From a virus: a stretch of 40,935 nucleotides of DNA. Both the position numbers and the translations under genes were made by a program. Below the pieces are notes generated by a model. It was given only the letters and a program-made list of their open reading frames with translations, was not told where the DNA came from and searched no databases. The stretch lies in the IMG/VR virus record IMGVR_UViG_3300049432_000210, positions 1 to 40,935 of that record; one strand, given 5' to 3'. Shown here in pieces: positions 1 to 40,878 of the stretch (positions within the stretch are counted from its first letter, which is position 1; the number at the start of each line of letters is the position of its first letter).

Positions 1-873
1 ATGCAACTGACAAAGTTATTTTCAATGTATATGGACGAAAGAAACTATCTCAAGAACGCTTCACCACTGAGCCTAAAAAGCAATCGTATCTGCTGGAAAA
101 GGTTTGAAAAGGCAATGGGCGAAAAACTAATGGTCAAGGTTCTGGATAAGGCTTTCTTAAAAGAATTTGTTATTAAATTGCGTGAATCGGGACTATCCCC
201 GACAACCTGCAATATCACGATCAGGGAACTGAATACGTTTCTGAAATGGCTTTATGACAATGAATTTACCGCCACGCAGTTAAAAATGCAGCAGTTAAAA
301 ACAGAGAAGAAAATCAAGAAAGATTTCAGCGATGAAGAAATTAAGCGAATTATGGATTGGAAGCCGAAAACGTGGTTTCAGCACCGGCTCTACGCTTTGT
401 TGATGACCCTGATAGACTCAGGCATCAGAATTGACGAAGCATTGACGTTAAAACGCTCAGACGTTAATTTCTACGACTTGGTAATAAAAGTCTCAGGGAA
501 GGGCAAAAAAGAGCGTGTAGTGCCATTTTCAATGGAGCTTCGGAAGGTTTTATGGAAGTTTTCAAAGATGCACCCGCACAATCTGATGTTTTCTACCCAA
601 AAAGGCTATAAACTCAGTTATAACAATATGCTGAGGGAATTAAAGCTGTTAGCAGCGGATTTAAGGATTAATAATGAAGATGTCGGATTTCACCAATTCA
701 GATACGGATTTGCCTTAAATTACATTCGTCAAGGCGGGGATGCGTTCCGGCTGCAAAGGGTGATGGGACACGCAACGATAATAACTACTCAAGGATATGT
801 CCGGCTTATGACCGACGATCTGAAAGAAACTCACGTAAAAACGTCAAGACTTACTAAACTTAGGAGCGGCTAA
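1..873 (+). CDS. int: Tyrosine recombinase (integrase)
   Basis: A 290-residue site-specific recombinase of the phage integrase/XerC-D superfamily. It is expected to cut and rejoin DNA at att sites through a 3'-phosphotyrosine link. The N-terminal SAM-like core-binding domain covers about residues 1-95 and the catalytic domain about 110-280. The full catalytic set is visible: R143 (GIRIDEAL), a lysine at 167 or 169 (GKGKKERVV), H231 and R234 (HQFRYGF), H257 (MGHATI) and nucleophile Y266 (TQGYVRL). The ORF begins at the first base, so no upstream signal is seen inside the window. If the ends join, the start lies about 60 bases past a tRNA-Phe half, the usual attP-int arrangement. The last 30 bases overlap the convergent HNH gene. 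Identification is firm; the target site is inferred. Confidence 0.95.
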   Translation: MQLTKLFSMYMDERNYLKNASPLSLKSNRICWKRFEKAMGEKLMVKVLDKAFLKEFVIKLRESGLSPTTCNITIRELNTFLKWLYDNEFTATQLKMQQLKTEKKIKKDFSDEEIKRIMDWKPKTWFQHRLYALLMTLIDSGIRIDEALTLKRSDVNFYDLVIKVSGKGKKERVVPFSMELRKVLWKFSKMHPHNLMFSTQKGYKLSYNNMLRELKLLAADLRINNEDVGFHQFRYGFALNYIRQGGDAFRLQRVMGHATIITTQGYVRLMTDDLKETHVKTSRLTKLRSG

Positions 874-3915: not shown

Positions 3916-4809
3916 TTAAATATCTAAAGAGCTTTCCCAATCATCACCAAATACCCAGCGTAGAGCTGACATTTTGCCTTGAAGAAATCCCCATTCAAAA
4001 TCATCATAAACAAGATTTTCTCTACCGCCGTATTTTTCTTCCATTTCTTTCATTTTTTTAATTGCAGCTTGGAAAAAATGCTCCATTTCGGGTCGGCGTT
4101 CTTCTTCGCCCCTAGCCATTTTCTCGAACATGATTAATTTTCTGACATACCAAACTTTGTCTGTGATTTCATCCAATACTTCGGCAATCGAGTTATCGCT
4201 GCGCCTCAAAATCATTGCCCATTTTTCGCCGTCTTCTTCAATCCATTCAACCTTATTTCCTTCTTCATCATAGCCGATAGGAAAACCATTTATACCGACT
4301 TCACCTACTTGTACAGGGTCTTTCATCTCAGATTCAGTGCGATTGCGAAAAGGATTTAAAAATTCTCGGTTCATTTCCGCTATCTGTGTCGCCAAGTCAG
4401 TTTCGCATTGTTCTATTCCGATTCCAGCCTCTAAAATTTTCCACCAACCATTTCCTTGGATAGCCGGATTTCTATCTATTATTCCAAAAACTACTTTGCC
4501 GATTTTTCGACCGATTATTCTATCGGCACAAGGTGTTTTGTTTTTACCACGTCTAGTGCAAGGCTCTAAGGTTGTAAATAATGTTGCCCCAGTCAGGTCT
4601 TTATCTGCCAGTTTCATTTCCAATACGGTAAATTCAGCATGGTGTCCCGACTCAATTTCACCTCTGTATCCCTCACCCAAGATGATTCCGTCACGAGCGA
4701 CTATAGCAGCTACTTTTGGTGAATTTTTGCCCTGTTCACTTTTACAGTTATGAGCTAATTCTATAGCTCTCTGCATTATTTCTCTATCTGTTAATTTCTT
4801 TCCGTCCAT
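3916..4809 (-). CDS. RibD/CDA-superfamily deaminase with extra C-terminal domain
   Basis: A 297-residue protein. Residues 1-150 are a zinc-dependent deaminase of the cytidine/deoxycytidylate/RibD superfamily: H57-A-E59 supplies a zinc ligand and the proton-shuttling Glu, and P83-C84 ... P93-C94 supply the Cys ligands, with RRGKNKT between them as in RibD-type enzymes. Residues 165-297 form a separate, mostly helical domain ending YDDFEWGFLQGKMSALRWVFGDDW, a motif I recall from small uncharacterised bacterial proteins. The substrate is unknown: nucleotide, free base, RNA or DNA are all possible. It lies 15 bases downstream of the gene at 4825-5712, giving a two-gene leftward unit away from core phage modules. 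That hints at cargo or defence, but defence is unproven. Confidence 0.8.
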   Translation of the reverse strand: MDGKKLTDREIMQRAIELAHNCKSEQGKNSPKVAAIVARDGIILGEGYRGEIESGHHAEFTVLEMKLADKDLTGATLFTTLEPCTRRGKNKTPCADRIIGRKIGKVVFGIIDRNPAIQGNGWWKILEAGIGIEQCETDLATQIAEMNREFLNPFRNRTESEMKDPVQVGEVGINGFPIGYDEEGNKVEWIEEDGEKWAMILRRSDNSIAEVLDEITDKVWYVRKLIMFEKMARGEEERRPEMEHFFQAAIKKMKEMEEKYGGRENLVYDDFEWGFLQGKMSALRWVFGDDWESSLDI

Positions 4810-7988: not shown

Positions 7989-9293
7989 ATGGTATATAAA
8001 CAAAATGAATGGACAGAGGAATCTCTTTTAGCCTTGTCAACTGAAGACGATAGGTTTGATAAAAAATCCGGGAGCATTTTCCCCTCTGATTTCAAAAAAA
8101 TATTAGCAAAGGCTGTGTCTGCGTTTGCTAATTCCAATGGTGGTCACATCATAATTGGGATGTGTGATGAAAGAGATAGAGATAAAAATGGTAGGGATTT
8201 TGATGGAGTGAATTTCAAGCCAAAGAAGGTTTCTTTTTGTGAGTGGTTAGAAGACCAAATATCAGGATTAGTAACCCCGCCTATTCAAAACTATAGAGTT
8301 CTTCCTGTAAAATCAAAATCAAAGAACTCTCAAATTCAAAAGGATAAGCCTGTTTACGTTATCGAGATTGAAGCAAGCGAAATTGCTCCTCATCAATCTA
8401 ATGTAGATAAAGTTTATTATTACCGTGAAGGGAATGATTCGCAGCCAGCAACCCACTATTATCTAGAGGGTTTGCGAAGCGTCAGAAGATTTATATCACC
8501 TGATTTAGTAAGGGCATGGTTAGACACTTTCCTTTTAAAATTAAATCAATTCTTCAAAGAGGCTGCCGCGTTTTATCAAAAAAGAGATTTTTTCCCATAT
8601 ATTAACGACTCATCAATTAGCAAAAAGTTTTCGTTTAAAATTGAATATACCGGGGATAATTTATTTTTTTACACACAACATTTAAACGCTGACCAGTTTT
8701 TACGCCGTTTCCCTAGATTTCAAACAAAATTTGAAGAATACAAAAAGCTCAGTGAGAAATTTAATATTCAATCTGATCTATTGAAAAATAGTATTGCTAA
8801 CAGCACTGAATTACACAATTTCTTATTCAAGAAATTTATTAAAAGCGATAATTTTTCTGTTTTGCTAACAGATGTTGGAATTGAATTAGGACATGACAAA
8901 TTAGAAAATCGGCAAAGGCGATTATTTGAATTGTGTTCATTTTCTCCTACAGTACCAAAAAAAGAATTCCTGAATATGATAGCTGGTATTGCGTCTTGCG
9001 AACTTTTAAGTTCAATCGCTTTAGATGAAAAAGCAAATAGATTAACCGATAAAAGTCCGGTTATGAAATTTATTCGTTTATGGAATGTAATATCAAAAGG
9101 AATTTACGAATCAATAATTCCAAACTTAAAAATTTCCAAATCTAAAAAAAATTGTGAATTAGCTTTGGTTGAGTTAAGTAGTTTTGTAAATGAACTTTCA
9201 AATGAATTAGATACAGAAATTGACCTTCTTACTAGTAGAAGTGGAGTACCTTATATTTCATATGATGATAGTAATACAGGACTCTTTAGATAA
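7989..9293 (+). CDS. AlbA_2/Schlafen-type ATP-binding protein
   Basis: A 434-residue protein. Residues 1-170 match the AlbA_2 (Schlafen-like, formerly AAA_4) domain: AFANSNGGHIIIGM (46-58), PVYVIEIEASEIAPHQ and VYYYREGNDSQPA. Members occur in stress regulators and in a number of antiviral systems. Residues 175-434 are a long, mostly helical Lys-rich region with no domain I recognise. It has its own upstream terminator and AT-rich promoter region and a terminator at 9317-9343, so it is a self-contained unit inserted between early and late modules. That fits a 'moron'-type cargo gene, perhaps superinfection exclusion or defence (inference). The family call is firm; the job is not. Confidence 0.75.
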   Translation: MVYKQNEWTEESLLALSTEDDRFDKKSGSIFPSDFKKILAKAVSAFANSNGGHIIIGMCDERDRDKNGRDFDGVNFKPKKVSFCEWLEDQISGLVTPPIQNYRVLPVKSKSKNSQIQKDKPVYVIEIEASEIAPHQSNVDKVYYYREGNDSQPATHYYLEGLRSVRRFISPDLVRAWLDTFLLKLNQFFKEAAAFYQKRDFFPYINDSSISKKFSFKIEYTGDNLFFYTQHLNADQFLRRFPRFQTKFEEYKKLSEKFNIQSDLLKNSIANSTELHNFLFKKFIKSDNFSVLLTDVGIELGHDKLENRQRRLFELCSFSPTVPKKEFLNMIAGIASCELLSSIALDEKANRLTDKSPVMKFIRLWNVISKGIYESIIPNLKISKSKKNCELALVELSSFVNELSNELDTEIDLLTSRSGVPYISYDDSNTGLFR

Positions 9294-9375: not shown

Positions 9376-10485
9376 TTATAGAGCGGCGGTATAGTCGGTG
9401 ATGAACTTTCCTAATTTCGCCGTATTTTCATAATGCGAAATCGGGTTAAGTTTTTTTAGGGCGGTAGTGACTGCGTTTTCCAGTCTCCACAGCGTTTTTC
9501 GGTTAAACTCCTCGTAAAGAGCGCGTTCAAAATATTCACGGTGTGTTGTTCTGAAAAGGCTGATGGGAAGTTTTGCGTCTGTGAAAAGCCTGTATAGCAT
9601 TTCTCTGGCTTTATCATCCAATAACTCGTGATTACGTTTGAAATCAATCATTTCACGAATGGGCTTCCATCCTCGCTGCAAGCGATCTACAGCAGTAGAA
9701 ACTGATTCGACCAGATCGAGATTCTTGCTGTGTTTGGCAAGCATTGGCTTGTATTCACCGGCAAAAGAAAGATTGTCGCAAACAATCACCTTATAACCGG
9801 CGACGATTCCAAGACGCATTGATTTGTCATTGGAATTTCTCAGTCCGATGGCAAAGTTCACGCCTTCATATCGAGCGTTTACCTGCAAGACGGCAAAGAA
9901 TTTCATTCCGTCCGGGGTAACTGCAAATTCTTCTTTAGTAATGTTGATATGACGAAACGCTAAGGCTTCTTCAATCGCTTGTACCAAGAAGTAATGGGAA
10001 ATCGGTTTGAATGTGTCTGTTTCTTCCGGTAATGGAAGTCCGAGCAATCCGCCTCTGGAAACAATACCTGCTCCGCAGTGGGCAATCAGCGTTCCGTTGC
10101 CAGCCGGATTAACGACAGCGACAGGAGCGACAACTTCAGGAATAACTACATTCCTTTGACCCCCATTATTGGCTGCAACAGGAATTTGGTTCAGAATTTC
10201 ATCTGAAACATCCGGCATATTATCCAGACGCTCCACGATTTCATCAATCAACTCCTCGTTCTCATAATTGACGTATTCATCCTCAAATGGTTCATCGTTA
10301 AACGATTCTTCAAGTTGCTCGAAGTAATTATCGGGCAAGTTTGATTCACCTTTCGGGATTTCGGTTTTGGCTCTTGATTGAGCCACGGCTTCGGCGATGC
10401 ATTCGGCATGAAAATTTTGACCGTTCCAATTGACCTGCATCGTTGCCAGAATATGTTTTTGGCATCTTGGTAAATCACAATTCAT
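9376..10485 (-). CDS. DUF932-family protein with N-terminal zinc motif
   Basis: A 369-residue protein. Residues 150-369 carry the DUF932 signatures EEFAVTPDGMKFFAVLQV, FAIGLRNSNDKSMRLGIVAGYKVIVCDNLSFAGEY and a long helical tail. DUF932 proteins are common on plasmids and phages and are of unknown biochemical role. The N terminus adds a small CDLPRC...H...C cluster (C3, C8, about H26, C29) that may bind zinc. An acidic stretch (about 50-95: LEESFNDEPFEDEY and more) links the two. It is the last gene of the late leftward block and overlaps the next upstream gene by 4 bases. Placement at the end of a late operon is unusual for DUF932, which more often sits with replication genes. Confidence 0.8.
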   Translation of the reverse strand: MNCDLPRCQKHILATMQVNWNGQNFHAECIAEAVAQSRAKTEIPKGESNLPDNYFEQLEESFNDEPFEDEYVNYENEELIDEIVERLDNMPDVSDEILNQIPVAANNGGQRNVVIPEVVAPVAVVNPAGNGTLIAHCGAGIVSRGGLLGLPLPEETDTFKPISHYFLVQAIEEALAFRHINITKEEFAVTPDGMKFFAVLQVNARYEGVNFAIGLRNSNDKSMRLGIVAGYKVIVCDNLSFAGEYKPMLAKHSKNLDLVESVSTAVDRLQRGWKPIREMIDFKRNHELLDDKAREMLYRLFTDAKLPISLFRTTHREYFERALYEEFNRKTLWRLENAVTTALKKLNPISHYENTAKLGKFITDYTAAL

Positions 10486-23833: not shown

Positions 23834-25852
23834 TTAGATACCTACTCCCATCAACATTCTGCGAGGGATAACGCTTGGCTCTGTTTGAGTTAATATGAAA
23901 TTTGCATCTTGCCCCGAAAGGATAAAGTTCGCTTGCGCTCCGATAAGCACCCCAGATGAAATAAATCCTACTGTTTGACCTGCCAACGCAAACGCTCCGT
24001 TATCTGTATTTAACAATCTGTCGGCGCGAATCTCTATATCTTTGCCAGAAAGCGTATAGGTTCTATGAATGGCTGTCAGCAATCTTCCCACTTTGACATT
24101 CATATTGTGACCTGTAAGGGATATTGCGGCGTGTGTTGCACGTAAAACCCTACTGACAACCATATTTGCGCTTTGTGCCGTTACGGTAAATGTACCGTAA
24201 ATGGCTGTCATCACTTCGTCTTGAGCAAAGCTAACGGCTTGTCCGGTGAGGTTAAATACCCCCTGCTCAAGCGAGAACACTAATCCCCGAAGGAAATTAG
24301 TAACCCCGCCAGTAACAGAGACCAAACCTTGGGCGGCTGTTAGTGATACGGCTGAGTTATTGAAAGTGACTTCTACTTCAACCTTATAGACATTACTCGA
24401 AGGTTCTTCTCCACCGGAAAGATAAATTTTGGTTTCAAGGTCATTAACCTTTTGCCAAGTCCATCCTCCTGACGGTGTATTTAAAGTAATGTAATTACCG
24501 TAACCCGCGACACCTAAACTACCAATTCTAGTTGCTGTTCCTAATAATTCCCCTAATCCATTTGAATAAATAACGGCACTTGTAGTCCCTGGTGTATCAC
24601 CTCCGTTTAATGCGTAAACTCTTGCCCTGACCTGGGTAATTGTTCCGCCTGACGTTGGAGCATTAGTTCCTTCACCTAACAAGAAATTAGATAATGTGCT
24701 GCCGGTAGTAGCAGTGCTGGCACTATCTGTAGTATTACCGTTAAAAGCATTTGCATCATTAGACCAAACACTATTCGGGTCGCTTATCGCGGCATCTGAA
24801 GCGTCAAGATAATAAGTCGCTACTGCTCCTATAGAGAATGTTGTCGTTTGTCCTGTAAGTGCAAAAGAGCCTTGGGCAGCGGTGAAAGTATAACCTCTTT
24901 TTAAATTCGCGGTCTGTCCAGATAAAGAGAAACTTCCCTGAGATGCAGTCAGTTTTCTTGTTGCTTGGAATGTCGCAGTCTGTCCCGAAAGAACAAAACT
25001 TGCTTGACTGACAGAGAACGCATAGCCTTTTTTGAGATTAGTAGTTTGCCCTGTAAGACTAAAACTTCCACTTCCTGCGGTAAGTTTCCTCGCGGCTTTT
25101 AAGTTTGTTGTTTGACCAGTTAAAGTAAATGAACCTTGGGCTGCTGTAAGAGTATAAGTAGCGCCATCTGCCGCAGGTCGAATTGCCAGTGTTACCGCAG
25201 CCCAAGAATCTGATGTAGATGTAGTCCATCCAGTCCAAGCCGGAGGGTCTTCTGCGCCTGAACCACTCCATGCCTTAGAAGCAACCCCGATAATAGCGTG
25301 TTCCGATAAAGCACCACTACTAGAGGTATTAAAAGCATTAGTATAACCTGACGGAGCTGTGACTATCGCGTCTGAAGCCGCTCCAGTTCCCAAACCAGTT
25401 GCGACTACAACTGAACCAGCAGTGACTGGAGTTATAGCTGGAGCATCTGGGATAGCCGAGTTCGCTCCTGTTACAGTTGCCCTAGTAACATCTAAAGGCG
25501 TAAGCTGGTCAGCATTTCTCCAAACATAAACGATACCTACTGAACCTAAACTAGCATCACCGCTTCCGAGACAAGTAACAGACGTATCTGGCGTACCCCC
25601 CATAAGTTTCCAGTTCACTGAGAATTGAGCGTCTCGAATATCATTCCCTGCTATATCAGCGACTTCAGTATAACCAGAAGTAGCAACGCCGGGGTTTGCA
25701 CTGCTTAGTGTGCGGCTAAAACCCGTAGCGACAATAACTAAGTCGCCCGTTGCAGCAGTCGCTGATATACCTCCGACAAGAGAAGTTAAACTGATAGCAA
25801 AATCAGCACTTGTTCCATTCGCAGATTTTCCGCCAACAAATTCTAAAGCCAT
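23834..25852 (-). CDS. Repeat-bearing virion surface protein
   Basis: A 672-residue, Thr/Ser/Ala/Gly-rich protein. Residues 1-228 form a beta-sandwich-type domain (GSVGIVYVWRNADQLTPLDV, GWTTSTSDSWAAVTLAIRP) common in phage and lectin-like proteins. Five 22-residue repeats follow (233-343), each like TAAQGSFTLTGQTTNLK. A second unique domain covers 345-500, and seven more diverged repeats run 501-656. The ATG has GGAGGG upstream. Repeats of this GSFTLTGQ type occur in virion proteins of environmental phages. Likely head decoration or adhesion; the exact role is unproven. Confidence 0.65.
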   Translation of the reverse strand: MALEFVGGKSANGTSADFAISLTSLVGGISATAATGDLVIVATGFSRTLSSANPGVATSGYTEVADIAGNDIRDAQFSVNWKLMGGTPDTSVTCLGSGDASLGSVGIVYVWRNADQLTPLDVTRATVTGANSAIPDAPAITPVTAGSVVVATGLGTGAASDAIVTAPSGYTNAFNTSSSGALSEHAIIGVASKAWSGSGAEDPPAWTGWTTSTSDSWAAVTLAIRPAADGATYTLTAAQGSFTLTGQTTNLKAARKLTAGSGSFSLTGQTTNLKKGYAFSVSQASFVLSGQTATFQATRKLTASQGSFSLSGQTANLKRGYTFTAAQGSFALTGQTTTFSIGAVATYYLDASDAAISDPNSVWSNDANAFNGNTTDSASTATTGSTLSNFLLGEGTNAPTSGGTITQVRARVYALNGGDTPGTTSAVIYSNGLGELLGTATRIGSLGVAGYGNYITLNTPSGGWTWQKVNDLETKIYLSGGEEPSSNVYKVEVEVTFNNSAVSLTAAQGLVSVTGGVTNFLRGLVFSLEQGVFNLTGQAVSFAQDEVMTAIYGTFTVTAQSANMVVSRVLRATHAAISLTGHNMNVKVGRLLTAIHRTYTLSGKDIEIRADRLLNTDNGAFALAGQTVGFISSGVLIGAQANFILSGQDANFILTQTEPSVIPRRMLMGVGI
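23885..24352 (-). repeat. Seven diverged 66-base coding repeats
   Basis: These encode residues 501-656 of the surface protein, units of 22-23 residues such as SVTGGVTNF, NLTGQAVSF, TVTAQSANM and TLSGKDIEI. The units have diverged much more than the first block. Confidence 0.7.
24824..25156 (-). repeat. Five conserved 66-base coding repeats
   Basis: These encode residues 233-343 of the surface protein. Each unit is 22-23 residues with a GSF-x-L-T/S-G-Q core (GSFTLTGQTTNLK, GSFSLTGQTTNLK, ASFVLSGQTATFQ, GSFSLSGQTANLK, GSFALTGQTTTFS). Confidence 0.8.
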
Positions 25853-29253: not shown

Positions 29254-30435
29254 TTATAAACCGATGGAACTTTGAAGAGGGGCATAGGTTTCTACGGGTT
29301 CTTCTTCAGGTTCTGATGGCGGTTCAATATTGCTCATACCGTATCTAATTGCATCCATAGAGTGTGAATATAAATGATCTGGTTCGTTGATAATCTTCCC
29401 GTCTTTATCTGTAATCCAAATGTAATTGCGGTATTCCTTTATAACGTGAGTGGATCGTTTGGTAACTGAAATTTGATGTTGTTGGACGAATTGTATTCCC
29501 TGTAAAACTGAACCGGGTCCTTTGGTCGCGGGAAGGATGGTTAATCCATAACTTTTAATCTCGTCAATGCTCTTTGGTTCTGCGCTGTCGGCAATGATTA
29601 CCGCTTTATCAAGATTGGTGAAAATATCGGCTATTTGCTTATTGGAAAGTCCCTTTTGAAAGGTTATCTCATCAAGGATATATCCACCGTTATAGTAGTA
29701 AATGGCAACAATGGCAGACGGGTCATTAGTGTACCCAAAATCAAGTCCATATCTTTCGAGCCGCGCTTCGTGTGGAATGTCATCAATGATTCTCCATCCT
29801 GTATGGATTCGGCTTTCAACTTCTCCGAGCTGTCCTTCGCCATAGACTTGCCACCAGCTTTTATTACCTTTTCGTTGTTCGATTGATTTGATGATTTGCG
29901 GGTCGAGTGCTTCATTGTCTTTATAAGTAATAATTAAATGTTCTACATCATCTCGTTGGCTCTGAACATCAGTGTAAAACCAGAATTCTGTGGTCGGATT
30001 CCAGTCGAGAAAACAATACTCCTTAGTACGGACTTCGAGCTGCTGAAAGGCATCAAACGGGATATTATTGGCTTCATTGATAAATAGCCTATCGCGTCTG
30101 GCTCCCCTTAACTTATCGCCGTTATCTGAGGAAAAGAATTCAATCTGGCTGCCAGTTTCAAAGGTATATATCGAGTCGGTAGCGTTCCACCGGCTATCTT
30201 TCCAATAGCGATGCTCCTGCATGATTTTCTTGAAATCACGCATTGCGCCGCGTTTAAGATGAGGAACCGATTCGGATACTACTGAGGTAAGTTTAGGCTT
30301 CTTGTCCGTCTGTGCGGAGTGAATCAATAAGAGGAGTATCGAGATTGTCTTGCTGGCTGATGTCCCGCCCTGAACTGCCCTGATGCGCTTTGTCAGCTTC
30401 GCTATTTTGTTGGTTGCTGTCGTGAGTTGAAACAT
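29254..30435 (-). CDS. terL: Terminase large subunit
   Basis: A 393-residue packaging motor of the Terminase_3-type. The ATPase has Walker A GGTSASKT (residues 23-30) and Walker B RLFINEAN with catalytic E121. The RNase H-like nuclease has D232 (GLDFGYTND), D283 (IIADSAEP) and D361 (HSMDAIRYG). It cuts concatemers and pumps DNA through the portal. The start at 30435 lies 142 bases inside the small-subunit gene. A later start would remove the strand before Walker A, so the long overlap appears real. Confidence 0.93.
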   Translation of the reverse strand: MFQLTTATNKIAKLTKRIRAVQGGTSASKTISILLLLIHSAQTDKKPKLTSVVSESVPHLKRGAMRDFKKIMQEHRYWKDSRWNATDSIYTFETGSQIEFFSSDNGDKLRGARRDRLFINEANNIPFDAFQQLEVRTKEYCFLDWNPTTEFWFYTDVQSQRDDVEHLIITYKDNEALDPQIIKSIEQRKGNKSWWQVYGEGQLGEVESRIHTGWRIIDDIPHEARLERYGLDFGYTNDPSAIVAIYYYNGGYILDEITFQKGLSNKQIADIFTNLDKAVIIADSAEPKSIDEIKSYGLTILPATKGPGSVLQGIQFVQQHQISVTKRSTHVIKEYRNYIWITDKDGKIINEPDHLYSHSMDAIRYGMSNIEPPSEPEEEPVETYAPLQSSIGL

Positions 30436-35781: not shown

Positions 35782-35973
35782 ATGACATTAGAACAATATT
35801 TGAACAATGAATCTATGGAATTTAAAATTGATTTCTCAATACGAGTTTATGCATGGAATGATGGAAAACCTCACTTTTACATACACCCAACAGGTAAAGA
35901 CGGTAAAACCTTAGATTTTGAAGTAAATGGAAACCAGCTAATCCCTATTTACAAAACAGAAGAAACCGAGTAA
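35782..35973 (+). CDS. Small phage protein, 63 residues, unknown
   Basis: The protein contains FKIDFSIRVYAWNDGKPHFY, IHPTGKDGKTLDFEVNGNQL. I recall short homologues with the same FSIRVYAWNDGKPHFYIHP segment in phages and plasmids, of unknown role. Beta-rich. Its stop codon lies in the loop of the terminator hairpin that closes the operon. Confidence 0.65.
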   Translation: MTLEQYLNNESMEFKIDFSIRVYAWNDGKPHFYIHPTGKDGKTLDFEVNGNQLIPIYKTEETE

Positions 35974-35990
35974 TCCTCGGTTTTCTTTTA
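35964..35990 (+). terminator. Intrinsic terminator of the small-gene operon
   Basis: AACCGAG, loop TAATC, CTCGGTT, then TTCTTTT. The loop contains the stop codon of the last gene. Confidence 0.85.
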
Positions 35991-36873
35991 ATGGAAAGAC
36001 TGCCCCTGCTACATCCGCAGAAATTCACATCTCTGCGACTGCAAGCATCTAGCCCATACAGACGTGCCTTTGACATCTAAGACAAGGGCAATCTCCCTAC
36101 CTTAATAATACAGTACAAATCGGCAAGCTACGCTGGGTTATTGAAGGCAACCTCTTTACGGTTGCGGATGTCTGCTACAATTCTAAGACCTGTAAGTGAA
36201 TGGATAAATCAAAACTAACTATCTACACAAAATAACTAATCAATCTAACAAGCACATATCCTAATACCACATACACACACAATCTCTCTACCAACCACTC
36301 CCATAACTTAGTTTCACAGTACTCACAAAGATACACACTAAAGAACTTTCTCATACTTATTCCTTTCACTTAATAATGGTCTTCAAAAAGCAGACAGGCT
36401 CCGCAGCAGTCAAGAGTGGGAACGATTTAAATATATATATTCTTCTCTCCTCTTACTCTCTCGTGTTCATTCTCCAGTGCACACCAGAAACCAAACCAAA
36501 AACCATGAAACAACAAAACCGTTTCACACAAACAATGAACAATTAGCCTTACCCTTATTACCAATCCAACTACTACAATCTAACTAACTATGTTAACCCA
36601 CTAAAACACTCACCACTTAACATACGTTAACCACTCCAACCTGAACACATGAACACACAACCAGTTCACTAAAACACAAAACTGAACTGATAAAACCAAA
36701 CACAACAACACTGATAATAACAATTCAAATTAACCTTATACCCCGAACAAAGAGAGGGGATTATTCGGAAAACCGAAAAACAATCCCTATAGTATTCATC
36801 TCGTCATTCGACAACCCGCGCAAATGCTTGATTTTATTGATTATAAATTTTTAAGTCGGTATATCCTTATGGA
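35991..36873. other. Long non-coding stretch with an extreme G-poor half
   Basis: About 880 bases without a convincing gene. The first 200 contain a GCAACC/GGTTGC hairpin near 36150 and look like possible structured RNA. From about 36190 the plus strand becomes A/C-rich: in 36541-36720 I count 9 G against 54 C. That part has GTTAACC twice (36592, 36626) and an inverted repeat CAGTTCA/TGAACTG (36662-36689). CCGAA, TTCGG and CCGAA then occur in 36745-36776 before the convergent Replic_Relax gene end. Replication origin, transfer start or counter-transcribed RNA region are possible. Confidence 0.5.
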
Positions 36874-37608
36874 TTATGTAATGGACTCCGTAATGGAAAG
36901 CAAATCCGAAATTTTTTTAGTCGTAAATCGGTTTGTGATAAGTGTATTGAGTGGGTTTTCAACCAGATCAGAATGGACGGCTGCGTAATAATGACTGGAG
37001 CATTTCAGTTCTTCAAACAGCTTTACAACATTCGTCACAGAGGCTTCATCAGGCATTGTAAAAAGCAAATGAAACTGCTCTTTAGCTTCACGAAAGTGCT
37101 TCAGATAATTCAAGATTTTCTGCCGCCATACAGATATATTCTGTGAGCCGGTTTCGTGTTCAATATAAATAATTCCAATTTCACTATCCCACGTTCGATC
37201 TGGAATAAAATCTTTACCCAGACGTTTGTGCATTATCCATGTCACAACTAAATCAGCCAGCATCAGCGAAACAAATAAATTTCCCAATCCCCATTCGTGC
37301 TTGCGTTTATTATTATTGACTTCTGCTTTTGGCGGGACATAGCCAAGCTCATTTACGATATAAGAATCATTGGTAAGCGCCCAGAAATATTCCAGGGTTC
37401 CTTCATCCGGTGTGATTCCGTAGGATTTAGATTTTAAGAGTTTTTCGCCTCGGAGGGTTTTTAGGTTTTTCATCACCCTCTGATAAGCTCTGTTGCTGTT
37501 TTCGGGCGAGTATTCCTGCGGGTACATTGCTCTCGTTATCTGTCTCCCGGTCATCCACTTCTCGTAGTGGAGAAGTTGGAATATTTGTTCGTATTTGTCG
37601 TACATCAA
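36874..37608 (-). CDS. Replic_Relax-family protein (plasmid replication-relaxation)
   Basis: A 244-residue protein. Residues 1-75 are a winged helix (IFQLLHYEKWMTGRQITRAM, RVMKNLKTLRGEKLLKS). Then HEWGLGNLFVSL (104-115) is a family hallmark. The C-terminal half has P136-D137, E150-H-E152 (IYIEHETGSQN) and K164 in RQKILNYL, an order like PD-(D/E)xK nucleases. The family is typical of plasmids and integrative elements, often beside a coupling ATPase, and has been linked to replication or relaxation of DNA; the nuclease reading is my inference. Its first 182 bases overlap the upstream ATPase gene in another frame. Confidence 0.75.
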   Translation of the reverse strand: MMYDKYEQIFQLLHYEKWMTGRQITRAMYPQEYSPENSNRAYQRVMKNLKTLRGEKLLKSKSYGITPDEGTLEYFWALTNDSYIVNELGYVPPKAEVNNNKRKHEWGLGNLFVSLMLADLVVTWIMHKRLGKDFIPDRTWDSEIGIIYIEHETGSQNISVWRQKILNYLKHFREAKEQFHLLFTMPDEASVTNVVKLFEELKCSSHYYAAVHSDLVENPLNTLITNRFTTKKISDLLSITESIT

Positions 37609-39016
37609 TTTGTCTATGAATTTCTTCTTTACTTAAATAAAACGGCTGGCTTAATATTTCCTTTATATATTCATCAAGTTGCTCATCGGATACTTGCTCT
37701 GTGGTAATGTCCGGCACGTCCGGTACTCTAATTCTAACAGGTGTTTCTTTGTCTTTTTTGATAACCATCTCCCGCTTGGGAATATTCTGGTTGGCATAAG
37801 AAGCGAGCAGCGGATGCAAATCTCCGCCATATCCTAAATCCTCAACCATTTCCAGCCGGTCTTTATAGCTCGATATATTGAACATCATCTTAATGCGGCA
37901 ACCGTTCTTGATGGCGTTTAATGCGGCTTCTTGTCCGAATTTCCGAAACTGATAAAAGTCATGATGAGCGATAACAAGGCGAAGTCCAATCTTGCCAAAG
38001 TAATCTAGTAAATCAGCAATTTGTAAAGTAGCAAATCGAGCCGCTTCATCCATATATAAATAAAATATCTTTTTAACTACACCTTCGGGTTTGTAATGGA
38101 ATAAAGCACTCATCGCTTGAACAATCTCGGAAATTATCAGAATCCCTAGAAGCCTCGCCTGTGTTTTAGGTAATGATCTGTTCGGTGACAAATTCACTAA
38201 AATTACCCATCCCTCTTTCACCATCTTTTCAAAATCTATCCCTTTGTCGCTGGCTGTCATTAGTTTTAACGGATTTCCGCGAAAAGTGTCGAGCCTGCCG
38301 ACTGTAGTAATAAAATACTGATTAAAGTGTGTGCGGTTGTTGAATCCATCTTTGATGATTAAAGAATCTTCATCAAAATCCATAAACGGCAATTGTCTGG
38401 GATCAACATAATTACGGAAATACTTTGTTTCATATAAGGTAAGATTTTTTTGAGCTAGGATATTTAAGATGGCAGTGAGATTGCGCTTAACGCGGTTTGT
38501 ATCCGTCTGATTTACTACTCCGAACAAAGCATTTACTGATTCTAATATCGCATCTATGGACTGTTCACGGTAAGGGGGTGGTTTAATTGGCTGGATGGTA
38601 GGTATTCTGTTTAGCCTGAAACATAAATCAGGGTCTATGTAAATAACCTTCTTAATACCTTTTAGAGCGCAGTAACGAAGAACTTTTTTGCAAGTATCAC
38701 CGTTTTCTGATGGGTCTAGCAGACACAGCCCGTTGCCCATATCAATATCCTGTCTTATCTGATATTCGATAAACTTGGATTTACCCTGTCGAGGCTGCCC
38801 GATTATGTGCATATTTGCCTCGCGTTCTTCTTCTGTTATCCACAGTTCTTTAGAGCCTGATCCAAGCAGACGGAGCGGATACTCGGATTTTGAACGTTTG
38901 GCATCTTTATTTAAAATATCTTCAAAACTCGGAATGTGATAATCAGCATCGAAATTTCTACCTGTTACACGCTTATAAAAGTCTGGAGGCTTCTGTTCTT
39001 TGCCGTTTGAACTCAT
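37427..39016 (-). CDS. VirD4/TraD-like coupling ATPase, soluble form
   Basis: A 529-residue ATPase of the TraG/VirD4-HerA group. Walker A is GQPRQGKSKF (73-82). CLLDPSENGD (98-107) corresponds to the 'DPhGD' element, Walker B is FYLYMDEAARFA (D324-E325), and LVIAHHDFYQF follows as the sensor region. Such ATPases deliver relaxase-bound DNA to a type IV channel. No N-terminal membrane helices, so it may dock on the membrane proteins encoded just upstream. It is unusual beside a complete phage head-tail module. The C-terminal tail overlaps the Replic_Relax gene by 182 bases. Confidence 0.85.
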   Translation of the reverse strand: MSSNGKEQKPPDFYKRVTGRNFDADYHIPSFEDILNKDAKRSKSEYPLRLLGSGSKELWITEEEREANMHIIGQPRQGKSKFIEYQIRQDIDMGNGLCLLDPSENGDTCKKVLRYCALKGIKKVIYIDPDLCFRLNRIPTIQPIKPPPYREQSIDAILESVNALFGVVNQTDTNRVKRNLTAILNILAQKNLTLYETKYFRNYVDPRQLPFMDFDEDSLIIKDGFNNRTHFNQYFITTVGRLDTFRGNPLKLMTASDKGIDFEKMVKEGWVILVNLSPNRSLPKTQARLLGILIISEIVQAMSALFHYKPEGVVKKIFYLYMDEAARFATLQIADLLDYFGKIGLRLVIAHHDFYQFRKFGQEAALNAIKNGCRIKMMFNISSYKDRLEMVEDLGYGGDLHPLLASYANQNIPKREMVIKKDKETPVRIRVPDVPDITTEQVSDEQLDEYIKEILSQPFYLSKEEIHRQIDVRQIRTNIPTSPLREVDDRETDNESNVPAGILARKQQQSLSEGDEKPKNPPRRKTLKI

Positions 39017-39866
39017 TAATAATCTCCCTCCTGTCGGCTATCATCTGCTGTTTGGTGTTGTGGTCTAAGTATCTGTTCTGAGAAATAAGCATTATCTGAG
39101 TGTGCTGTTCATCAATAAACTCCTGTATCAATAAAACCTTGCGGTTATTCTTCAGATAGTCGGAAACAATACCGGCGTTCACGCGAGCCTCATACTCTCT
39201 GATACGGGCATCAAGTTCGGCGTTTATCTTACGGATTTCATCATCTACTATTCGACTGCGTTCTTCCATCTCCAGCCGCTTTTCGGCTTCGAGAGTCATT
39301 ATGTGCAGCTTATTCATGAACTCCGCTTCTTGTTTGCGTATCTCCGACAAGTAATACTCTTGATTTACCCGGTCGAAGCCTTCTACCGTCAACCCCTGCT
39401 GAGCTGCGTTATGGTAGAGCTGCGCGTAAGCGATAACATTCTGAATAACTGATTCATTCTCTGCAATAAACCGTCTCAAGTCGCTTTCTGATCTCTGCCG
39501 GTTGATTATCGCAGTAGAAATATCTTCAGCTTGTTCAATTAGAAGCTTCTGGTTTTTACCTACCTTTTCTAAAAAATCATTTCTTCGGTCTTGACTCTTT
39601 CCTTTGAACCAAGCCCAAAATCCACCCATATCCGAGCGATAACTATTCCATAAAGTGAACAGTTTAGTATCGTGATTTGGGTCAGATATTTGAGTTGTTA
39701 AACTTCGGGTTTCGTAACGGGCAAGCTGTGTATCTTTAAACGTCTGGTAAAACGGATCGTGCGGGTAACGAGATTTTACCATTCTACCTACTTCTTCGTC
39801 AGACAAATCGTATTCGTCGGGGTGTTCTTCTTTGTAGAGTCGTCCTAAATCCGCAAGAGTCGGCAT
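38973..39866 (-). CDS. Long coiled-coil protein of the mobilization module
   Basis: A 297-residue protein. The N-terminal 35 residues (TLADLGRLYKEEHPDEYDLS, DEEVGRMVKSRYP) are a short helical unit I recall at the start of many bacterial and phage proteins. From about 100 to 297 it is almost all charged helix, with E/R/K-rich coiled coil (TLEAEKRLEMEERSRIVDDE). It lacks catalytic motifs. The 3' end overlaps the coupling ATPase by 44 bases, so it is likely a partner, for example a spacer or adaptor between DNA and membrane parts. Confidence 0.6.
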   Translation of the reverse strand: MPTLADLGRLYKEEHPDEYDLSDEEVGRMVKSRYPHDPFYQTFKDTQLARYETRSLTTQISDPNHDTKLFTLWNSYRSDMGGFWAWFKGKSQDRRNDFLEKVGKNQKLLIEQAEDISTAIINRQRSESDLRRFIAENESVIQNVIAYAQLYHNAAQQGLTVEGFDRVNQEYYLSEIRKQEAEFMNKLHIMTLEAEKRLEMEERSRIVDDEIRKINAELDARIREYEARVNAGIVSDYLKNNRKVLLIQEFIDEQHTQIMLISQNRYLDHNTKQQMIADRREIINEFKRQRTEASRLL

Positions 39867-39869
39867 TAC

Positions 39870-40373
39870 TTATTTCCCCTTTTGTTTTTCTCTCCATCGT
39901 TTAGCAAGTCCCAGGGGGTCAATGTGATTCCCTGACGAATCCCCAAACATATTCTGAACGCTTTCTTCCATTTCCTTTTGTGCTTTTTTTTCTTTATCAA
40001 GTTGATTTTTCCCCAGCCATATAGCGAATAAACTAACAGGTATACCTACGAAGAGTACACGCGCCCCCAGTCTCCATTCTCCACTCCCTATTACATGTAA
40101 CGCAGCTAGAGAAATACTTAGGGAAAGCACACACAAACCATATTTTAACTCAGTAGGTTCTAATAACTCTCTGTACTTATCACGATAGGCATAATAGATT
40201 CCTAATACATAACTGACTAATAAACCCGAAAAAGCAAAAAACGCACCGTCTGGTAAACCGTATTGGACTGCTGCATATAATCCGTATAAAAAGCCAATGG
40301 TCAACATTCCTAATAATAGAAAAAAATTAATAGGTGACTCGCTTCGTTCAAAGGATATACTGAATCTGCTCAT
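39870..40373 (-). CDS. Four-span membrane protein of the mobilization module
   Basis: A 167-residue protein. Membrane helices lie at about 16-37, 43-62, 80-95 and 102-120; the C-terminal 45 residues are soluble and charged (QLDKEKKAQKEMEESVQNMF, LGLAKRWREKQKG). It starts 3 bases before the coiled-coil gene and 36 after the small membrane gene, all leftward. The topology suits a membrane base for the soluble coupling ATPase; this is inference from position. Confidence 0.6.
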   Translation of the reverse strand: MSRFSISFERSESPINFFLLLGMLTIGFLYGLYAAVQYGLPDGAFFAFSGLLVSYVLGIYYAYRDKYRELLEPTELKYGLCVLSLSISLAALHVIGSGEWRLGARVLFVGIPVSLFAIWLGKNQLDKEKKAQKEMEESVQNMFGDSSGNHIDPLGLAKRWREKQKGK

Positions 40374-40409
40374 TCATATTCTCCTACAAAACTGAATTTG
40401 TCTTGGAAC

Positions 40410-40637
40410 TTATCTCCCACTATTCTCTAAAGTGCGGATGCTCCCTGCGGTTATCACTCTGCCTAGATAGCAAAGTCCGACGAGAACAAAAGACATTATC
40501 GGTATCCATAAGCCATGTAACCCGACAAAGTAAGTAATGACGCTGATGACTCCGACTAAAACAAAGACTGTCAACGCTATCCCAGCAACTAAATTAAAAT
40601 TAGCCAGTAGTGATATAGAACTATCATATTTCCCCAT
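40410..40637 (-). CDS. Two-span membrane protein, first gene of the mobilization operon
   Basis: A 75-residue protein with two helices (LVAGIALTVFVLVGVISVITYF and LWIPIMSFVLVGLCYLGRVI) and a short polar tail. AGGAG lies 8 bases before the ATG, and the operon promoter is about 30 bases further upstream. Size and topology recall small type IV secretion membrane components or holin-like proteins; no firm match. Confidence 0.6.
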   Translation of the reverse strand: MGKYDSSISLLANFNLVAGIALTVFVLVGVISVITYFVGLHGLWIPIMSFVLVGLCYLGRVITAGSIRTLENSGR

Positions 40638-40666: not shown

Positions 40667-40695
40667 ATTATAATCTAAAATTAATTTATGGTAAA
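40667..40695 (-). promoter_or_regulatory. Near-consensus promoter of the mobilization operon
   Basis: On the minus strand: TTTACC (40695-40690), a 17-base spacer and TATAAT (40672-40667). It points into the gene at 40410-40637, 30 bases away. Confidence 0.8.
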
Positions 40696-40730: not shown

Positions 40731-40766
40731 AATAAAAAATCCACCGGAAATTTAACCAGTGGATTT
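40731..40766 (-). terminator. Intrinsic terminator after the tRNA half
   Basis: On the minus strand AAATCCACTGG, loop, CCGGTGGATTT pair over 11 bases with one G-U, followed by a T-rich tract (TTTATTT). It ends whatever is transcribed leftward from the tRNA-half promoter and isolates the operon promoter at 40667. Confidence 0.75.
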
Positions 40767-40840
40767 AAGGATTTGAACGAATTTTACTGCTCGTAAGTTG
40801 TTGAAAACAAAGAAGGATGGATTGTAAATTTAAAGTTGTC

Positions 40841-40878
40841 TTTTCAGTCCGCTGCTCTACCAACTGAGCTACCAAGCC
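40841..40878 (-). tRNA. Partial tRNA-Phe(GAA), 5' half only; probable att site
   Basis: Read on the minus strand from 40878: acceptor GGCTTGG, TA, D-arm GCTC...GAGC with loop AGTTGGTA, A, anticodon 5' stem GCGGA and loop CTGAAAA with anticodon GAA. The homology stops exactly after the loop: the next bases are GACAAC instead of TCCGC. No T arm or matching acceptor CCAAGCC follows within 110 bases. A break at the anticodon loop is the classic crossover point of tRNA-targeting tyrosine integrases, so this is best read as attP or a prophage junction. Confidence 0.75.

Follow-up and report, generated by a model that had tools for sequence, protein, structure and literature searches.

Gene content and context of the operon

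The window, by which we mean the whole stretch of DNA that was analyzed, is an IMG/VR virus record of 40,935 bases. Five ORFs on the minus strand between positions 36874 and 40637 were confirmed with unchanged coordinates. The initial annotation had described them as genes for two membrane proteins, a coiled-coil protein, a VirD4/TraD-like ATPase and a Replic_Relax protein, and ORFs, Pfam matches and transmembrane (TM) predictions agree with this description. The features of the operon and of the element that carries it are as follows.

1..873, plus strand: tyrosine integrase (Pfam 2.2e-27), at the end of the element opposite to the operon
29254..30435, minus strand: terminase large subunit, which marks the element as phage and served as query for the relatedness test
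36874..37608, minus strand: Replic_Relax protein (Pfam PF13814), 244 aa from a TTG start (or from the next-codon ATG at 37605)
37427..39016, minus strand: VirD4/TraD-type ATPase, 529 aa, Walker A at residues 73-80, Walker B MDEA, without N-terminal TM segment
38973..39866, minus strand: soluble protein rich in charged residues, probably a coiled coil, with the N-terminal motif YDLSDEEVGRMVKSRYP
39870..40373, minus strand: membrane protein, four predicted TM segments, DPLG motif at the C-terminus
40410..40637, minus strand: small membrane protein, two predicted TM segments
40667..40695, minus strand: promoter-like site TTTACC-N17-TATAAT ahead of the operon, matching the consensus at 10 of 12 positions with a 17-nt spacer
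40737..40766, minus strand: terminator-like hairpin between the operon and the partial tRNA, of a kind not found above chance
40818..40878, minus strand: partial or degenerate tRNA, 5' half clear (RF00005, 14.6 bits, under the gathering score; E 2)

Membrane proteins are thus the products of the first two genes to be transcribed; the third gene encodes the soluble charge-rich protein, whose relatives in most other phages have an N-terminal transmembrane helix. The near-consensus promoter proposed for the operon holds in part: the site just behind the terminator-like hairpin has the top score in the region, tied solely with its own 16-nt spacing version, but promoter-like sites are not commoner there than expected by chance (18 versus 16.2). 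Directly downstream of the Replic_Relax gene lies a non-coding stretch (35973-36874), C/A-skewed in the window, with counterparts of about 0.4-1.4 kb at the same place in the relatives looked at. The stretch in the window matches no Rfam family and shows no clear repeats, and no obvious oriT-like repeat set was seen beside the module.

The module shares its element, which is temperate and podovirus-like, with phage genes, as had been noted earlier. Besides the integrase and the terminase large subunit, the window encodes an SU10-type portal, a gp3-type small terminase and coat-like and scaffold-like ORFs. Its start coincides exactly with the integrase start codon and its end lies beyond the partial tRNA, a pattern expected of a trimmed provirus; that the record is a complete genome is therefore unproven. 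The partial tRNA is a probable attachment site. As it flanks the operon on the right, the window has the appearance of a temperate phage that is integrated or carries attP, and not of a plasmid. No plasmid partition (Par) or replication (Rep) family was recognized among the window proteins scanned, and the suggestion of a phage-plasmid gives way to that of a provirus. Curated RNA families gave no match in the window at gathering scores.

Some other genes of the element were recorded in passing. A Schlafen/AlbA_2-domain protein (7989-9293; Pfam 1.6e-15) is a possible defense or regulatory gene. A deoxycytidylate/cytidine deaminase-like protein with a C-terminal extension is encoded at 3916-4809 and a DUF932-like protein at 9376-10485, the latter with relatives in three module-bearing phages with unrelated virions (G001, G003 and G004). 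Within the virion operon, a 672-aa protein with internal repeats (LTAxQGSFxLTGQT; 23834-25852) lacks a recognized counterpart in phage G003, which is otherwise similar.

Predicted domains of the Replic_Relax protein and the ATPase

The Replic_Relax protein scores above the Pfam cut-off for PF13814 (E 1.3e-9; 38.9 bits versus 25.3), while some of its relatives fall under it. This domain is listed for MOBC relaxases (PMC5357655), which are PD-(D/E)xK-related enzymes (PMC12857230). The structural model (pLDDT 87.5) has a winged helix at the N-terminus and a PD-(D/E)xK-like nuclease domain at the C-terminus. Residues 1-89 match MarR-type folds with a Z-score of about 10, and the C-terminal domain matches BstEII moderately (Z 9.4 over 125 residues), with further moderate matches to Can2/Cdn1-type nucleases, N.BspD6I and others. 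H104, D137 and E150 are kept in 13 of 13 sequences, and E105 and K164 in 12 of 13. Model and conservation together suggest a PD-(D/E)xK-like nuclease domain with conserved H/D/E/K residues, as in MOBC relaxases.

The ATPase has a RecA-like nucleotide-binding domain in which both motifs of the initial annotation were located: Walker A is GQPRQGKS (residues 73-80), the sole match to the pattern [AG]xxxxGK[ST] among the ORFs of the window, and Walker B lies in LYMDEAAR. None of its scores exceeds the cut-off of a curated coupling-protein family in Pfam or NCBIfam. TraG-D_C (E 0.0014; 19.0 bits versus 22) and TrwB_AAD_bind (E 0.0026; 17.2 bits versus 20.5) stay just below, and the TraD models of NCBIfam are matched, SXT_TraD with 1.1e-7 (30.7 versus a cut-off of 366) and TOL TraD as well. 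In profile comparisons, the highest probabilities were obtained with coupling proteins, i.e., VirD4 of Embleya (99.4%), proteins of Bdellovibrio and Campylobacter (98.5%) and of Paenibacillus (96.4%), as against 34.7% for the FtsK-like ATPase of Bacillus phage 268TH007; an FtsK-type ATPase was rejected on this comparison. The model (pLDDT 79) has TrwB as its top fold match (Foldseek 1.7e-11; Z 27.4 over 358 residues), but DndH-C (Z 26.6) is tied with it and VirB4 (26.2) is close, so the fold alone leaves the subfamily unsettled and the sequence profiles do better. On the latter, the grouping of the ATPase with conjugative coupling proteins is supported. A packaging ATPase was also rejected, a separate terminase being present on the element.

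An N-terminal TM domain in the same chain is usual, though not universal, for type IV coupling proteins. The ATPase of the window had been called soluble, in line with the TM predictions; among the ATPases scanned such a segment was predicted in none (0/9), and separate membrane proteins precede them.

Conservation and allele swapping among related phages

Relatives were collected by a terminase search, which yielded 80 related phage loci, and by profile searches with the ATPase. Besides the window, 12 IMG/VR phage records from many metagenomes carry the ATPase gene followed by the Replic_Relax gene. The two ORFs overlap in all 12, by 104-296 bp in the eleven that were measured, and the recurrence of this order and overlap in independent records excludes a chance arrangement of ORFs. 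An assembly chimera, in particular a join of phage and plasmid sequences, was rejected, since the same arrangement recurs in these syntenic relatives. In all 12 the module is found no more than about 2 kb from a record end, and membrane and coiled-coil genes stand upstream of the ATPase gene in those records that are complete enough. Where an integrase gene is present, the module is mostly found at the opposite end, with the exception of G051, in which the integrase directly precedes it. In L103, a related provirus, an intact tRNA-Leu adjoins the module at the record end, and the adjacent sequence reads by eye as the start of a trigger factor gene. Two more distant phage contigs (L150, 517-3786, and L151, 1992-5314) encode an ATPase, a Replic_Relax protein and then a second related ATPase.

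The three closest phages by terminase (91, 91 and 78% identity) all carry both genes. The module was not found in terminase relatives at 75% identity or less, but this counts for little, as many of them are fragments cut before the site. Virion genes vary among module-bearing records: G004 has little in common with the window beyond the terminase, and G001 shares an ATPase of about 61-64% identity, while its terminase and portal are unrelated. VirB4 (PF03135) was not found in 11 records, several of them fragments, so module phages seem to lack a type IV channel of their own. A self-conjugative element was rejected on this basis and on the single Walker A pattern match in the window. No polymerase, replicative helicase or initiator was recognized in the module phages, although many window ORFs have no assigned function, and a DnaG-like gene occurs only in G053 and its relatives L148 and L149.

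Phages with terminases of 91-99% identity have ATPases that are just 29-41% identical. For G053 and L149, the terminase is 99% identical, the ATPase 41% and the Replic_Relax protein 28%. The window differs in the same way from G003 (91, 29 and 39%, respectively) and from G002 (91, 41 and 24%). Reassortment also occurs inside the module, as the window ATPase is closest to that of G001 (61%) and its Replic_Relax protein to that of G003 (39%). A difference in evolutionary rate alone is an unlikely cause of this divergence. The simplest reading, in relatives complete enough, is that the locus stays occupied while its alleles are replaced. Near-identical packaging genes next to very different modules indicate that the module matters to these phages and is often exchanged.

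Possible function of the module

The biochemical class of the module is much better supported than its final purpose. Our preferred but tentative reading, with a probability of roughly 0.4, is that the operon is a plasmid-type relaxosome and coupling module of temperate phages that hands DNA to the type IV channel of a helper. The ATPase matches TrwB as top fold, the SXT_TraD and TOL TraD models and VirD4 profiles at 96-99%, and the Replic_Relax domain is that of MOBC relaxases. The same VirD4–Replic_Relax gene order is present on an Embleya plasmid, where the two genes follow each other directly in a conjugation locus that also contains genes for PrgI, NlpC/P60 and an ATP-binding protein. Coupling proteins need anchoring in the membrane, and wherever a record extends far enough, genes for membrane proteins stand before the ATPase gene; the lack of a VirB4 match in 11 records is what mobilizable elements would give. 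On the other side stand the missing oriT-like repeats beside the module and the near-equal fold scores of DndH-C and VirB4.

Beyond the parts, their conservation and their folds, the mechanism is modeled on MOBC systems such as CloDF13. Once the phage genome has been excised and is circular, the winged helix of the Replic_Relax protein would recognize a site on it, and the protein's PD-(D/E)xK-like domain may nick one strand in the manner of MOBC. The ATPase would act as a hexameric VirD4/TrwB-like DNA pump, with the membrane and coiled-coil proteins encoded upstream standing in for the membrane domain that it lacks. The module as a whole could carry phage DNA to the inner membrane, there to pass it to the type IV channel of another element in the host, which would give the prophage a second, conjugative route of spread. 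Mobilizability of the element is plausible.

A role in prophage defense or superinfection exclusion, in which a membrane-anchored translocase and a nuclease attack incoming phage or plasmid DNA during lysogeny, is unlikely but a serious contender. The module lies at the att end of proviruses, furthest from the integrase gene and with its own promoter-like site, and defense and exclusion genes are also common at such ends. Its membrane or exported partners are variable, the motors of HerA and DndH defense systems are close fold neighbors of the ATPase, and the PADLOC model mad8 matches related ATPases (1.4e-14 for L105; 7.8e-9 for L103). A similar pair in a Bacillus phage is part of an insertion, the four-gene cassette of 268TH007, that is missing from a 96% identical sister phage (PMC9476937). 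Yet PADLOC gives no meaningful match to the module proteins of the window itself, sequence profiles favor TraD for the ATPases of the window and L103, and in the Embleya locus the pair stands among transfer genes. Divergent alleles in phages with 91-99% identical terminases fit exclusion or immunity, but also replication. In the latter case, Replic_Relax would nick the circularized genome to start replication while the ATPase moves or unwinds DNA at the membrane. Such a role is distinctly less probable, though it too is a serious contender. It would suit phages in which no replication initiator was recognized and a module that is always kept but swapped, like replication and immunity regions, and Replic_Relax has been called essential for plasmid replication in the phage literature (PMC9703825). 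However, phage 268TH007 has a full replication set while its sister lacks the pair, Tyroviruses likewise encode a replication set of their own, the ATPase belongs with coupling-type pumps and not with replicative helicases, and the many window ORFs without assigned function could hide an initiator. Very improbable, finally, is that the module, as a relic of a plasmid ancestor, maintains or segregates an episomal prophage through a link to the membrane: ParM/ParG-type partition genes do lie close to the pair, or to Replic_Relax, in Bacillus phages (PMC7685451, PMC9703825), but the integrase and the tRNA-proximal ends point to integration, and a partition gene was not recognized in the window.

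Gene spread by virus particles and gene spread by conjugation are regarded as two distinct routes. With its retention in many unrelated temperate phages and its exchange between near-identical ones, a relaxase/coupling module would bridge both; alternatively, it would represent a new prophage exclusion system built from conjugation parts. It is possible, though doubtful, that a widespread, allele-swapping, membrane-anchored system of relaxase and coupling ATPase belongs to the core genes of a temperate-phage guild and provides either a conjugative route or a new membrane-sited form of exclusion or restriction. As the pair is already annotated in cultured Bacillus-group phages, the question can be addressed in laboratory strains.

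Comparison with known systems

CloDF13 resembles the module in that MobB and MobC combine a VirD4-type ATPase with a PD-(D/E)xK-type MOBC relaxase and have no channel of their own. In contrast to the window ATPase, which is soluble and has its membrane parts in separate proteins, MobB includes, within its own chain, a membrane domain of three helices, without which it is inactive and transfer is abolished (PMC7431656). Furthermore, CloDF13 is a mobilizable plasmid, whereas the module sits on a phage. The long ORFs of CloDF13 gave no convincing profile match to the module proteins, and direct comparison returned a short P-loop match only. TraX of pAD1 and the MOBC family likewise combine the Pfam Replic_Relax domain with a restriction-endonuclease-like catalytic domain (PMC12857230), but the sequence of TraX is very divergent from that of the window protein, and the oriT of TraX has five direct repeats to which the protein binds, a set that was not found beside the module. 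HerA-nuclease, DndH and mad8 defense ATPases share a related motor fold and a frequent pairing with nucleases. The partner of the window ATPase, however, is a Replic_Relax protein, which PADLOC models do not cover.

The module had been put forward as an undescribed system, which overstates its novelty, since pairs of an ATPase and a Replic_Relax protein are already annotated in the Bacillus-group phages 268TH007, phi18-2, GBSV1, SpaA1 and Bfsp1, in Tyroviruses (PMC9703825) and in Novomoskovsk and Bolokhovo (PMC9658697). In 268TH007, a small membrane protein, an ATPase and a Replic_Relax protein follow each other in the same order, with overlapping ORFs and near an integrase, but the ATPase is FtsK-like and not VirD4-like, and the cassette has no coiled-coil gene. 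According to its published annotation, Tyrovirus Thrax has a type IV secretion protein (gp17) beside a replication-relaxation protein (gp18) (PMC9703825); Tyroviruses, unlike the phage of the window, have genomes of 157-169 kb with their own replication genes and ParM. What is new is the VirD4-type instead of FtsK-type ATPase with the added membrane and coiled-coil genes, the persistent retention of a module that is nonetheless swapped within a group of phages whose virions are unrelated, and the structural support for a nuclease.
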